A stretch of DNA of 64,000 nt from Siphonodentalium dalli (taxonomy: Eukaryota > Mollusca > Scaphopoda > Gadilida > Siphonodentaliidae): NCBI GenBank assembly GCA_032622095.1, contig CP136063.1, positions 36,678,106 to 36,742,105 of the forward strand. The letters run 5' to 3'. Positions 13,676 to 54,993 of the stretch are shown here, piece after piece (the stretch's first letter is position 1; every line of letters starts with the position of its first letter). A program made the position numbers and the translations under genes. The notes beneath the pieces were generated by a model. The model was not told the DNA's origin. It ran no database searches and saw nothing but the letters and a program-made list of their open reading frames with translations.

Positions 13676-14076
13676 CCTTAAACCTTTACCCAACAAACCG
13701 GCCAAAACGGCCAAATAAAGATTCAACAGCCTAAAATATCTTCGGTCTGTCTCAATAGAACCATACACTTATGGATATCATTGGAACCGGCTCCTTGACC
13801 ACATTGTGATAGTTACAGTTATGCCCTGTGCCAATGCATTCTCTTATATATGCGAGTCGACCATAGGTCGCCTCGCATATATAAGAGAATGCATTGGCCT
13901 AAAAAAAATCTTTTTTTAACACTTTTTACCATTTTTTCTTACATTCTTTAACAATTTTATAATTTTTAATGTGTTAAGCCAATGCATTCTCTTATATATG
14001 CGAGGCGACCTATGGTCGACTCGCATATATAAGAGAATGCATTGGCACAGGGCCCTTCTGTTGGGTAAAGGGTTAA
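13676..14076. mobile_element. MITE with two 72-bp perfect hairpins in opposite orientation
   Basis: Outer ends are inverted (TTAAACCTTTACCCAACA and TGTTGGGTAAAGGGTTAA). Inside are two near-perfect palindromes, about 13827-13901 and 13978-14050. Each has the arm CCAATGCATTCTCTTATATA followed by TGCGAG, around a centre with CGACC and ATGG. An A/T-rich spacer separates them. The same hairpin occurs at 44203-44277, with degraded relatives at 15557 and 17640. Confidence 0.8.
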
Positions 14077-44116: not shown

Positions 44117-44322
44117 ACTTTAACCCTTTGACCTAAACCTACAAAATAAGTCTCTTAAAGAATATAAGAATAAATTATTAAAATTGTAAAAAAAAAAAAT
44201 TAGGCCAATGCATTCTCTTATATATGCGAGGCGACCTATGGTTGACTCGCATATATAAGAGAATGCATTGGCACAGGGTATATGGGTTGATACAAAATCA
44301 GACCTGGCGCTCAAAGAGTTAA
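44117..44322. mobile_element. MITE with one 72-bp perfect hairpin
   Basis: Outer ends TTAACCCTTTGA and TCAAAGAGTTAA are inverted repeats. The interior holds the hairpin CCAATGCATTCTCTTATATA (44205 on) and its complement ending 44272, the same as in the 13.7-14.1 kb MITE. Confidence 0.75.
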
Positions 44323-51965: not shown

Positions 51966-51987
51966 GTTCCCCAATATTGTGCACATT

Positions 51988-52105
51988 AGTAGTAATGGGG
52001 GGCAGGCACTATGGCCCAGTACCCCCCAGACATGGGCACTATGGCCCAGTACCCCCCAGACATGGGGCCATAGTGCCCATGTCTGGGGGGTACTGGGCCA
52101 TAGTT
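51988..52105. repeat. Left terminal arm of 31-bp repeats, itself palindromic
   Basis: After AGTAGTAATGGGG come two forward copies of CACTATGGCCCAGTACCCCC plus CAGACATGGG, then one inverted copy, giving a strong hairpin centred near 52066. Confidence 0.9.
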
Positions 52106-52252
52106 CCCCCCTGAGGATAGATGTTCCTGTTATTGATGTGACATTTCTGATCGAAAAAATGAAAATGGACTTAGAATTATTTTTTTCAAAAGGAAAATCT
52201 CACTTTGGAAAATATCAATTAGCTATCAAGAGTTTCTTTTCGATCAGTTGGT

Positions 52253-52268
52253 GGCCCTGAAAAGGGCC
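52253..52268 (-). terminator. Histone-type 3' stem-loop of the OTU-like gene
   Basis: On the minus strand GGCCCTTTTCAGGGCC has a 6-bp stem and a UUUC loop, matching the histone mRNA consensus. It lies 19 nt after the stop codon. ACCA follows, then a purine-rich GAAAAGAAA about 10 nt on, as expected for a U7-binding downstream element. Confidence 0.85.
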
Positions 52269-52287
52269 GTTTTATTTTTGTTATAGT

Positions 52288-52752
52288 TTAGAATCCGCCA
52301 CATTGAACTTCTTTGTTCGACAAAACTTCAATTGATTTGTCTCCTCTCCTCATCCATATTTCGCATTCACAATAATGCTCGTGGCAAGCGTGGGGGATCC
52401 ACACTAGAGGTATTGATGACTTGAATCTTGGTGTTGATTTGTAGCCGCCTTTGGTAGCATCAAACATGACGATAGGTCGCTGTATAACAGTCGCCGCTAA
52501 TTCAACCATCAATCTTGCTTCGGCCAAAAGTGGTGAGTGCCGTAAGTCTTGTGCCGACGCACCAAGTTCGTCCCTCTCTGTGTAGTACAGGTCAACTACC
52601 GCATCTCTCAGAACCATCCATCCATCGGTCGTCCCGTAAACCCCAATGCTGAGTGCCCTCCAAAATAGAGATATTTCTTCGCCGTACACTGCTTAATAGT
52701 ATACCCCACGTACCATCATCTCGTCAAGATCGGTTATGTTTACAGCAGTCAT
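52288..52752 (-). pseudogene. OTU-protease-like gene with Ser at the Cys position and an in-frame stop
   Basis: The minus frame starts at ATG 52752-52750 and meets a TAA at 52695-52693, then stays open for 133 codons to 52288. The open part begins YGEEISLFWRALSIGVYGT and continues LRDAVVDLYY, then an LAEARLMVELAATVIQRPIV segment and ends near IPHACHEHYCECEIW. This order resembles OTU deubiquitinases (DG.C.FRALS..LYG, LR, central helix with RPI, terminal HY). The nucleophile position is Ser instead of Cys and the preceding DG is absent, so catalysis is doubtful even without the stop. It is divergent from the plus gene at 53661. The OTU assignment rests on pattern reading only. Confidence 0.5.
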
Positions 52753-52835
52753 CTTTGAATGCAGAATAAATTGTACGCTGCCGTGCTTGAACATGTATCA
52801 TGATTGCGCGGGCGGTAGAGAAAGCACATAATGCT

Positions 52836-52875
52836 TTGACGTTAAAAATGACAAATGTTTCCTGACGTTGTGTTT
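52836..52875 (-). promoter_or_regulatory. Shared promoter-like block, minus copy
   Basis: The minus strand reads AAACACAACGTCAGGAAAC, then ATTTGTC and TTTTTAACGTCAA. It matches 53531-53576 in opposite orientation, and its gene-proximal edge is 84 bp from the ATG of the OTU-like gene. Confidence 0.6.
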
Positions 52876-53020
52876 CTTTTCAGTGCATTATCTGTTAGTT
52901 TCATCATTTCGATATGTTATAGATTAAATTCATGATAGTATATGCAATTAATTAAGATGTTTTAACATATGAATTCATCTTCGTTCATAAACGATGACCA
53001 AGTAAAGTTATCAAATGCAA

Positions 53021-53605
53021 TGATCAAGAAAAATGTTCAGTATGTTTCTTGTATTCAGTTTTTTATGTATAAAATATGTACAATTCCAAAACAAAAACTA
53101 GAAAAACATTCCATATTTTCCTAACGAGGTAACAAATATATCAAATCATGTGTACCAAATAATAGATCATGATCTAACGAAATTAAAAACATTTGTTTGA
53201 TCGCTATACAATAATGATCAAGAAAAATATGCATGTTGATCCGTCTCTGAAAAAACACAACTTGAGGAAATACTTGTCAATTTTTAAGTTCAATGCGTTG
53301 TGTTTTCATTGACGCCCGTGTAACAATCTTGTGTTCAGTTTTTTATGTATAAAATATGTACAATTCCAAAACAAAAACTAGAAAAACATTCCATATTTTT
53401 CCTAACGAGGTAACAAATATATCAATCATGTGTACCAAATAATAGATAATGATCTAACAAAATTAAAAACATTTGTTTGATCGCTATGCAATAATGATCA
53501 AGAAAAATATGCATGTTGATCCGTCTCTGAAAAAACACAACGTCAGGAAATATTTGTCAATTTTAACGCCAACGCGACATGTGATTTCATTGTCGCCCGT
53601 GTCAA
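53021..53605. repeat. About 280-bp tandem duplication in the divergent intergenic region
   Basis: The block from TTCAGTTTTTTATGTATAAA to CATTG.CGCCCGTGT occurs twice, with a 280-bp offset (TTCAGTT at about 53054 and 53334). Each copy contains the promoter-like block, at 53251-53297 and 53531-53576. Confidence 0.85.
53531..53576 (+). promoter_or_regulatory. Shared promoter-like block, plus copy next to the gene
   Basis: AAAAACACAACGTCAGGAAA, then TATTTGTCAATTTTAACGCC. Its end is 85 bp before the ATG at 53661, the same spacing as in the divergent gene. Both copies are followed by a CGCCCG.GT-like word. Confidence 0.6.
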
Positions 53606-53660
53606 ATGTATACAAATATTTTCGAATTTGATCAACCTTACATTGCATTGCTATCAAGAG

Positions 53661-54148
53661 ATGGATCCGTTAACAGAATTTCTTCAGAGTGAGATATACA
53701 GTGATCCTGTTGCACAGAATACATATGCTGCGCCACAGTCAACAGTCCAAGCTAATACGACAATGACTATAGGTGGTGATACACTCATTTTAAAAGCGAT
53801 TTTAGATGAACTGAGATGTCTTCGCAGGGATATTGACGTGAAAACGCAAGTAACGCATCATGAAGTGAAAGTGAGTCTTCGTTTCGTTGCAGAACAGATA
53901 GATATCCCAATCAGGGTTCATGATGTTCAGAGATCGAAAGAGCAGAAACAGATCAAAAAAGAAAATCATCGGCGACAAAAGAAAAACAACCTAAGAGTAT
54001 CATGAAGGCTTCTACTGAGACAAAAGTCAGATTTCATCTTCCTTGTAAAGAATCTAGAGATACAGAGAAATGTGATGAATTCGCAAAAGCTCTCGGTTCT
54101 CATGGGAAAGATATGTCAAGATATAAGAAAAACACAAAACGGCGTTAA
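53661..54148 (+). pseudogene. Small basic protein gene of the element, one frameshift
   Basis: Starts at ATG 53661 (MDPLTEFLQSEIYSD), which sits better behind the promoter block than the in-frame ATG 33 nt upstream. The first part is polar; then a helical region (LILKAILDELRCLRRDI) and a strongly basic stretch follow. The first frame stops at 54003-54005. A 1-nt indel in the A-rich tract near 53980-53995 would join it to the next frame, open through MKASTETKV (54002) to the TAA at 54146-54148 and rich in Lys/Arg. I do not recognise the family. Composition suits a nucleic-acid-binding or core-like protein. A histone-type stem-loop starts 22 nt after the stop. Confidence 0.6.
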
Positions 54149-54170
54149 AGTCAGATGATAAATTTAAAAC

Positions 54171-54186
54171 GGCCCTTTTCAGGGCC
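54171..54186 (+). terminator. Histone-type 3' stem-loop of the basic gene
   Basis: GGCCCTTTTCAGGGCC on the plus strand, 22 nt after the stop at 54148, preceded by AAAAC and followed by ACACACA. The purine-rich downstream element is less clear here than on the minus strand. Confidence 0.85.
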
Positions 54187-54385
54187 ACACACATTTCCCA
54201 AAAGGTTACTCTTTCATAGCTGAAAAAAACAAAACACGATTGTTCAATTCATAATTTATTCAACAACAAATATTTGCAAGTATATTTTGTTTTAAATTAT
54301 TCGTGGCGTGATTTTTTCAAAACGAAACATAGGGTACAAGGAACATTATTAGTTCTTAAGCAATGCTAAAAGTTTTTCTTTGGTT

Positions 54386-54401
54386 GGTCCTGAAAAGGAC
54401 C
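54386..54401 (-). terminator. Second histone-type stem-loop, variant
   Basis: The minus strand reads GGTCCTTTTCAGGACC, a compensated stem variant (both stem partners changed). AACCA then AAGAAAAAC follows, like a U7 site. Confidence 0.8.
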
Positions 54402-54412
54402 GTTTTTGTTTT

Positions 54413-54428
54413 GGCCCTGAAAAGGGCC
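54413..54428 (-). terminator. Histone-type 3' stem-loop of the third gene
   Basis: The minus strand reads GGCCCTTTTCAGGGCC, 19 nt after the stop of the gene ending at 54448. A second stem-loop follows 11 nt later. Confidence 0.85.
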
Positions 54429-54447
54429 GTTTTGTACGACATCAAAT

Positions 54448-54710
54448 TCACTTCCCAATTTTCTCAGAGTGAGAATTTTGCTTTTGTTGTCCCGCCTCAG
54501 ATAAAATAGGACAGCTAGGCTCGGCTGGTATGGTTGCTGTTCTTTTTTGCATGATCAGCTTTGAACGGGCGGTCACTTCTCTTGCGTACCTGTCCCACAT
54601 TATCTGCGGTGTCATCCCCATAGTTCCTCTCAGTATCGCCATCAAGGGTTCGGGGATTGCAGATATGTTGAGAACAATAGAATAAGTCTGAAGATCCGTC
54701 TTGAACTTGT
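54448..54710 (-). pseudogene. Third gene remnant of the element, 5'-truncated
   Basis: A minus-strand open frame begins right inside the right terminal arm and ends at the TGA at 54450-54448. It encodes about 85 residues, including YSIVLNISAIPEPLMAIL, MTPQIMWDRYAREVTAR and a Pro/Ser/Gln-rich tail. The ISAIPEPLMAILRG segment looks like folded-protein sequence. No family recognised. The 5' part seems lost at the junction with the 31-bp repeats. Confidence 0.5.
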
Positions 54711-54853
54711 ATCATGTCTGGGGGGTACTGGGCCATAGTGCCCATGTCTGGGGGGGTACTGGGCCATAGTGCCCATGTCTGGGGGGTACTGGGCCATAGT
54801 GCCCATGTCTGGGGGGGGGGGGGTACTGGGCCATAGTGCCCCCCATTACTACT
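54711..54853. repeat. Right terminal arm of 31-bp repeats
   Basis: Four copies of CATGTCTGGGGGGTACTGGG plus CCATAGTGCC, the last with an expanded G run (13 G), then CCCCATTACTACT. Inverted relative to the left arm. Confidence 0.9.
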
Positions 54854-54993
54854 CACATTCAGACCACAATTTTCTTCTCTATAAAGCTCAGCAAAATCCT
54901 TATAAAGACTCCAGCAGAATGCGTGCTCATTGAAGGTCTGCAAACGTTATAGAATCATTTAGAAGAATGTATATGACTTCAGAAAATGATGCC

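Follow-up and report, generated by a model that had tools for sequence, protein, structure and literature searches.

A Histone-Type 3′-End Signal Confined to a Four-Gene Accessory Block of a Polinton/Maverick Family in the Scaphopod Siphonodentalium dalli

Introduction

Why would genes of a virus-like mobile element end in the same way as the histone genes of its host? The question is raised by a stretch of 64,000 nucleotides from the scaphopod mollusk Siphonodentalium dalli (GenBank assembly GCA_032622095.1, contig CP136063.1, forward-strand positions 36,678,106 to 36,742,105; the whole stretch is referred to below as the window), where a small, decayed Polinton/Maverick copy bears four stem-loops of the kind terminating replication-dependent histone messenger RNAs (mRNAs). 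In the relatives of this copy elsewhere in the host genome, the signal is confined to a block of four accessory genes and is not element-wide. Judging by the sequence, the transcripts of genes 1–4 are probably processed via the SLBP and U7 machinery of the host into untailed, S-phase-linked mRNAs, and those of the core genes are not.

Histone-type 3′ ends are thought to be almost exclusive to replication-dependent histone genes. The downstream element of the signal is required for cleavage, not for the binding of SLBP to the mature mRNA. In histone pre-mRNA, the stem-loop and the downstream element are recognized by SLBP and the U7 small nuclear ribonucleoprotein (snRNP) (PMC5636114, excerpt).

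Stem-Loops of the Window Element

The window harbors four histone-type 16-mers, each sense-oriented relative to its gene, and their places and strands are those given in a first-pass annotation of this DNA; no further match to the stem-loop pattern (up to 2 mismatches) occurs in the 64 kb. Among the 48 perfect hairpins with the 6-4-6 layout present in the window, only these four are histone-like, and dinucleotide-preserving shuffles of the window reached four matches in 0 of 100 cases (mean 0.20, maximum 1). The gathering score of the Rfam model Histone3 (RF00032), 34 bits, is cleared by the stem-loops of genes 1 and 2, and the tandem pair of gene 3 scores below it (see the list). The stop-to-stem distances proposed at the outset were reproduced: 19 nt for gene 1 (stop at 52288–52290), 22 nt for gene 2 (stop at 54146–54148), and 19 nt for gene 3 (stop at 54448–54450), with the second stem of gene 3 lying 46 nt off. 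Purine-rich words occur 3′ of the gene-1 stem, the distal gene-3 stem, and the plus-strand gene-2 stem (GAAAAGAAACTC, AAAGAAAAACT, and AAAAGGTTACTC, respectively), so the U7-like words initially reported for the minus strand are there at the first two of these stems; the proximal gene-3 stem of the window has no purine-rich word of its own.

The features of the element are as follows (coordinates in the window; strand in parentheses):

51982–51987 (no strand): left target-site duplication CACATT, identical to 54854–54859
51988–52111 (+): left terminal inverted repeat, opening with AGTAGTAATGGGGGGCA; units of about 30 bp in both orientations
52230–52241 (−): gene 1 downstream element GAAAAGAAACTC, purine-rich, U7-like; 6 of 200 shuffles equal this variant against the host set
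52253–52268 (−): gene 1 histone-type stem-loop GGCCCTTTTCAGGGCC; RF00032, 40.0 bits
52288–52773 (−): gene 1, decayed, with an in-frame stop; no match in library searches
52790–53660 (no strand): region separating the divergent genes 1 and 2, a presumed bidirectional promoter region
53661–54148 (+): gene 2, decayed, with a frameshift; the C terminus is basic, and no protein family was matched
54171–54186 (+): gene 2 histone-type stem-loop GGCCCTTTTCAGGGCC; RF00032, 40.1 bits
54200–54211 (+): gene 2 downstream element AAAAGGTTACTC; 10 of 200 shuffles equal this variant
54371–54381 (−): downstream element AAAGAAAAACT of the distal gene-3 stem-loop; 0 of 200 shuffles equal this variant
54386–54401 (−): distal gene-3 stem-loop GGTCCTTTTCAGGACC with a compensated pair; 27.6 bits, under the gathering score
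54413–54428 (−): proximal gene-3 stem-loop GGCCCTTTTCAGGGCC; 21.4 bits; without the ACCA tail or a downstream element of its own
54448–54711 (−): gene 3 open frame, its upstream region lost to an internal deletion
54713–54853 (−): right terminal inverted repeat
54854–54859 (no strand): right target-site duplication CACATT

Gene Ends Carrying the Signal

Relatives of the window element were retrieved by searching the nine contigs of the host genome (2.23 Gb) with the Histone3 model; the resulting 75 matches are a lower bound, being those scored out of 409,530 first-look candidates, and the control search gave a match that stayed under the cut-off in just one genome out of 14. Stretches were fetched around 14 places, of which 11 (loci L034–L044) cover the 12 dispersed matches, and the element family described here is present in all 11. 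The remaining 63 matches form arrays on two contigs (C5 and C8), and the array loci that were read hold histone genes, which we take, by eye or by peptide tags, to be H4 and H2B in L009; histone peptide tags are also present in L045–L047. The other half of the element was also fetched for five elements (L048–L052).

Gene ends were placed by tblastn with 16 reference proteins in the loci L034–L044 and L048–L059 and in the window; the stem-loop was sought on the sense strand up to 150 nt downstream, one broken stem pair being tolerated, and ends were dropped if less than 100 nt remained or the C terminus was unaligned. For the four accessory genes combined, across 18 fetched element loci and the window, the signal was found at 63 of the 64 placed ends. 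It follows gene 1 at 18/18 ends (19–20 nt after the stop), gene 2 at 18/18 ends (22 nt after the stop), gene 3 at 11/11 ends (13/41 nt, the stems forming a tandem pair everywhere but in L038), and gene 4 at 16 of 17 matches (18–19 nt). The one gene-4 match without it is frame-shifted and the second of two in L059, where the other is positive. It is uncertain which frame gene 3 uses: the figures refer to the frame g3_f2, which placed no end in the other loci reaching gene 3, the window included.

At the ends of the eleven core genes placed in this way, the signal was found in 0 of 64 cases, and at those of gX, a zinc-knuckle gene, in 0 of 16. The end of the gene encoding the family B DNA polymerase (PolB) falls outside the tblastn table; in the element of L034/L048, it is covered, apart from the junction, by covariance scans. 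The Histone3 model returned nothing at E ≤ 1 in the five core halves, and 20 matches over threshold in six left halves, located at genes 1, 2, and 4 and at the distal position of gene 3. Below threshold were the gene-2 stem of L034, the distal gene-3 stem of L043, and the five proximal gene-3 stems found; at E ≤ 1, the left halves gave no matches away from these gene ends. Under a stricter count (earlier locus set and the window), gene 1 is positive in 10 of 11 cases, the stem of L038 having a broken pair.

These results redraw the picture offered by the first-pass annotation. Its assignment of the stem-loops to the histone type is borne out by the Rfam scores of two window stems and of the 20 stems in six relatives, and the stem-loops recur at corresponding gene ends throughout the 18 related loci that were studied. 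Its statement that every gene ends in a stem-loop applies to the deleted window copy, with its damaged genes, and breaks down in the full-length copies, where the figures for the core genes and gX do not support a uniform terminator of the element.

Since the first 11 relatives had been found via their stem-loops, copies were also chosen by the capsid-like gene alone, taking every 16th row of its 97 genomic matches (n = 7). All seven carried the signal, with 32 stem-loops in total; six had all five stems, and the seventh stretch, reaching genes 1 and 2 only, had a stem at both.

The left block of the element is a duplicated cassette made of the divergent pairs 1/2 and 3/4; its convergent neighbors are genes 2/3 and gene 4/gX. 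In L034, identity amounts to 97.8% over 372 bp between the regions upstream of genes 1 and 3 and to 98.7% over 384 bp between those upstream of genes 2 and 4, hence a single presumed bidirectional promoter region is common to both pairs. No alignment was obtained between these upstream regions of L034 and those of the host histone genes (E ≤ 0.01, sense strand). The word ACCGCCC is present in upstream regions of the element and in some host histone loci (window 52810; L034:2469, 4080, and 4580; L046:1229); it also occurs once elsewhere in the window and was set aside as too short to count.

Likeness to the Host Histone Signal

The element and the host histone loci that were read have an identical stem-loop 16-mer. 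Past the stem, the host histone genes display ACCCAAATTTTCCAAAAAGATAAACTATTA...ATTGCT or ACCAAATTATTTTAAAGAGATACTTT...ATTGCT (another example is ACCCAAATTTTCCAAAAAGATAAACT), and the element genes display ACCCACATTTCCCAAAAAGGTTACTCTTTCATAGCT, ACCAAATATTCGAAAAGAAAAACTCTTGATTGCT, and AACCAATTTTTTCAAAAAGAAAAACTTTTAGCATTGCT; at least three distinct downstream contexts occur. The element downstreams were scored against seven distinct host downstreams, with 200 shuffles each. Thirteen of the 32 distinct element downstreams, which are related to one another and not independent, surpass all of their own shuffles in this comparison. Scores are highest for the distal gene-3 downstreams (16–26 vs. shuffle means of 8.3–8.8), and the remaining variants of genes 1, 2, and 4 are equalled by 1–12 shuffles, apart from one gene-1 variant equalled by 46. 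For the five proximal gene-3 downstreams, 5–126 of the 200 shuffles were equally good. Given the best scores of the distal downstreams and the failure of the proximal ones, it is probably the distal stem-loop that works as the signal of gene 3.

The Polinton/Maverick Family and the Decay of the Window Copy

Mavericks have terminal inverted repeats, duplicate 6 bp of the target site, and terminate in the motif (AGT)2//(ACT)2 (PMC8097293, excerpt); the criterion applied here was terminal inverted repeats of the (AGT)2//(ACT)2 or (AG)3//(CT)3 type. Adintoviruses are defined by a PolB with an OTU-like N-terminal domain together with Hexon, and their integrase bears a chromodomain (PMC11071296, excerpt). 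In the host of the present element, three full-length relatives with both ends measure 17,228, 18,214, and 16,997 bp and are flanked by perfect 6-bp duplications; over the four two-ended elements, the duplications read CACATT (window), AATATA, ATTGTC, and GACGCA. The ends of the window copy and its relatives, AGTAGTAATGG...ACTACT, are of the (AGT)2//(ACT)2 type.

A full-length relative encodes a viral-type family B polymerase (DNA_pol_B_2, PF03175, E 6.2e-39), presumably protein-primed. The further core genes include an rve integrase (PF00665, 48.3 bits vs. the cut-off of 32.6, E 1.3e-12), the C terminus of which weakly resembles Chromo (PF00385, 21.7 bits, under the cut-off of 25.1, E 1.9e-4), an A32-type ATPase (Pox_A32, PF04665, 35.1 bits vs. 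the cut-off of 22.8, E 1.3e-8), and a candidate adenovirus-type protease (Peptidase_C5, PF00770, 20.2 bits, just under the cut-off of 21.3, E 5e-4). The element hence belongs to an adintovirus-like family of Polintons/Mavericks in the host genome, and its early description as a virus-like mobile element is supported.

The capsid-like gene (434 amino acids) is named so for its size and position; searches of Pfam and PHROGs gave no match for it, and that of PDB none of significance. Its genomic matches number at least 97 (97 scored out of 2,112 first-look candidates, hence a lower bound) and are 99–100% identical over the full length, 94 of the 97 being free of internal stops. Such near-identity over so many copies indicates that the family has undergone a large recent burst.

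The window element itself spans 51988–54853 (2,866 bp) between terminal inverted repeats built of units of about 30 bp starting with AGTAGTAATGGGG; its ends read AGTAGT...ACTACT, and two 280-bp direct repeats (53047–53604) lie within the region between genes 1 and 2. The core genes, including the viral-type PolB, are absent, and the match to the relatives stops at the start of the right repeat, immediately upstream of the gene-3 frame, where the deletion junction lies. Because of these gaps, the stop within gene 1, and the frameshift in gene 2, the window element is regarded as an internally deleted, decayed Polinton/Maverick copy; open forms of its genes are present at other places in the host genome. 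Both terminal repeats (51988–52111 and 54713–54853) draw sub-threshold matches to microRNA models.

Gene 1 has no Pfam match up to E 10, no similarity to the element's own PolB (best E 1.1) or to solved structures (best E 0.063, ribosomal protein L3), and two structure models with predicted local distance difference test scores of only 50 and 38; a putative likeness to OTU domains was not borne out by the Pfam search. None of genes 1–4 has a histone match in Pfam, and the idea that they encode histone-like proteins was dropped after the profile searches. Gene 4 (L034:4637–4987) shows a weak match to Helitron_like_N (E 0.0065, under the cut-off).

Several further observations concern the family at large. 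The gene gX (L034:5133–5708, minus strand) is the divergent neighbor of PolB (L034:5928–9896, plus strand); its first 41 residues correspond to the start of PolB with 85% identity, i.e., an inverted duplication followed by the zinc knuckle. L036 holds two copies each of gene 4 and gX, and both genes recur in L037 (contig C1, ~276.52–276.54 Mb), several element copies being clustered there. The ratio of non-synonymous to synonymous divergence (dN/dS) exceeds 1 among near-identical copies of three core genes (L048:67–717, L049:4515–5366, and L048:7023–7481), amounting to 2.0 in six copies, 1.3 in three copies, and dN 0.025 over dS 0.001 in four copies, respectively, possibly owing to positive selection or to small-number noise. 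A short inverted-repeat sequence is common to the window (13824–14052 and 44155–44280) and the flank of another Polinton copy (L048:8817–9187).

Proposed 3′-End Processing and Its Alternatives

The four-gene signal comprises the AAAAC flank, a stem of 6 bp closed by the loop TTTC, the sequence ACCCA, ACACA, or ACCAA, and a purine-rich element about 12–13 nt past the stem. Pre-mRNAs of genes 1–4 would be cleaved just past the stem by the host SLBP and U7 snRNP/CPSF73, with the 5′ end of the U7 small nuclear RNA pairing with AAAAGAAAAACT/AAAAAGGTTACT as well as with the element of the host histone genes. Cleavage would yield untailed mRNAs made and translated mainly in the S phase, a restriction that SLBP would impose on the accessory mRNAs; the core genes (PolB, ATPase, integrase, capsid-like, and protease-like) make no use of the signal. 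Such timing would suit an element copying its own DNA in the nucleus. The anatomy of the signal, its recurrence in the examined copies, its restriction to one block, and its likeness to the host histone signal are observed; SLBP/U7 processing, the lack of poly(A), a link to the S phase, and an early or accessory function of genes 1–4 are our inferences.

A number of observations weigh against this reading. A broken stem pair is present in gene 1 of L038, gene 2 of L034, and distal gene 3 of L043, and L038 has the distal stem of gene 3 only, without the proximal one. The proximal gene-3 stem-loop lacks a downstream element, and 19 of the 32 element downstreams do not surpass all of their own shuffles. 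The Rfam U7 model detected no U7 gene in the host genome, the model being equally silent in the control genomes. The first 11 relatives, as noted above, had been selected by their stem-loops. The motif AATAAA starts 8 nt before the stem of gene 1 in 11/11 copies and lies 190–196 nt downstream of gene 3 in the 3/3 copies checked. Finally, since the copies are young and two further stretches are also slow (0.013 differences per site between the stop and the stem of gene 1; 0.017 beyond the downstream element of gene 4), the constraint contrast described below is modest.

The AATAAA motifs speak for the best-surviving alternative, which we consider unlikely, namely that the genes are polyadenylated (using AATAAA near genes 1 and 3 and cryptic sites for genes 2 and 4), the stem-loop serving as a backup or as an added level of regulation, e.g., of translation, stability, or export. 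Neither AATAAA nor ATTAAA was found, however, within 400 nt of genes 2 (four copies checked) and 4 (three copies), and the downstream element, which is required for cleavage, is retained at a similar distance. The motif AATAAA lies 13–33 nt past the stop of gX (10/10 copies) and at 254–294 nt from the last core gene (3/3 copies).

Another explanation, about half as credible as polyadenylation, views the signal as a passive relic: a host histone 3′ region once captured, spread by the duplication of the cassette, and functionless by now. It would account for the likeness to the host histone downstreams, and the 98–99% identity of the cassette upstream regions in L034 implies that part of the repetition is indeed duplication. 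On the other hand, the divergence of the stem-loop among copies is only 0.011, 0.011, and 0.013 per site for genes 1, 2, and 4 (11, 11, and 10 ends), that of the AAAAC flank is 0, and that of the next 30 nt is 0.034–0.085; the dS of the same genes amounts to 0.099, 0.080, and 0.130, as estimated from open copies only (8, 7, and 7), so the copy sets differ from those used for the stem-loops. The dN/dS values of 0.42, 0.46, and 0.34 indicate that genes 1, 2, and 4 were under protein selection, and their stem-loops were kept better than silent sites. The compensated stem (GGTCC/GGACC), the wobble variants, and the multiplicity of downstream contexts likewise speak against a relic.

Still less probable is a role of the hairpins at the level of DNA or as terminators, i.e., in separating convergent genes or in replication or packaging. 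The convergent arrangement of genes 2/3 and gene 4/gX would be in keeping with it, but gX, convergent with gene 4, has no stem-loop on its own strand (0/16), and, read on the sense strand, the loop, flanks, and downstream element conform to the histone RNA consensus. A chance origin of the stem-loops, for which only the abundance of perfect 6-4-6 hairpins could be invoked, is refuted by the shuffles, the gene-end table, and the seven copies picked regardless of stem-loops.

Processing of genes 1–4 via the host histone pathway is hence the reading we favor. On a broader scale, and with somewhat less assurance, we find it likely that a lineage of animal DNA viruses or transposons took over the histone 3′-end pathway of its host for a whole regulated gene block, giving rise to a two-class 3′-end programme within a single mobile element. 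If true, a Polinton using histone-type ends for a defined block would represent a natural, independent test of the purpose of this signal and would reveal a way for a nuclear DNA element to link the timing of its genes to the DNA synthesis of the host. It would also explain why transcripts of the accessory genes should escape RNA data selected for poly(A). The family is numerous and recent, so it is amenable to direct testing in the host.

Comparison with Known Systems

We know of no virus or transposon with the histone-type mode of 3′-end formation. The literature search retrieved no report joining Polintons, Mavericks, adintoviruses, or transposable elements to the histone stem-loop, SLBP, or U7, which is weak evidence of absence given the thin coverage of subscription journals; among the titles listed for the histone stem-loop or SLBP and viruses, none dealt with viral genes ending in this way. 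The term “stem-loop” does not appear in the excerpts of PMC11071296 and PMC11071308. Three viral contigs matched an 18-nt stem-loop pattern, yielded no Rfam match over threshold in the stretches examined, and were taken for chance hits (the proteins of two of them, L001 and L003, look phage-like by eye); a stricter pattern gave no match in viral contigs. Searches elsewhere for genes 1 and 3 gave two and three pattern matches, respectively, and no confirmed relative, that for the ATPase gave none, and those for proteins homologous to genes 1 and 2 were likewise without result.

With the replication-dependent histone genes of animals, the element shares the 16-mer of the host histone loci read, preceded by AAAC and followed by ACCCA/ACCAA, and a purine-rich element lying about as far downstream, as well as the arrangement in divergent gene pairs (cf. 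the H2A/H2B pair of L046). It differs from them in its genes, since genes 1–4 show no likeness to histones in Pfam.

With Polintons/Mavericks and adintoviruses, the element shares its ends, the 6-bp duplication, PolB, the rve integrase, the A32-type ATPase, and the size of 17–18 kb; the weak chromodomain match of the integrase and the near-threshold protease are candidates for further shared features. The element of this host differs in its four accessory genes with histone-type 3′ signals, the like of which is not mentioned for Polintons, Mavericks, or adintoviruses in the literature surveyed. Overall, it seems to represent an ordinary Polinton chassis equipped with a mode of 3′-end formation that, as far as the literature surveyed suggests, is new for Polintons.

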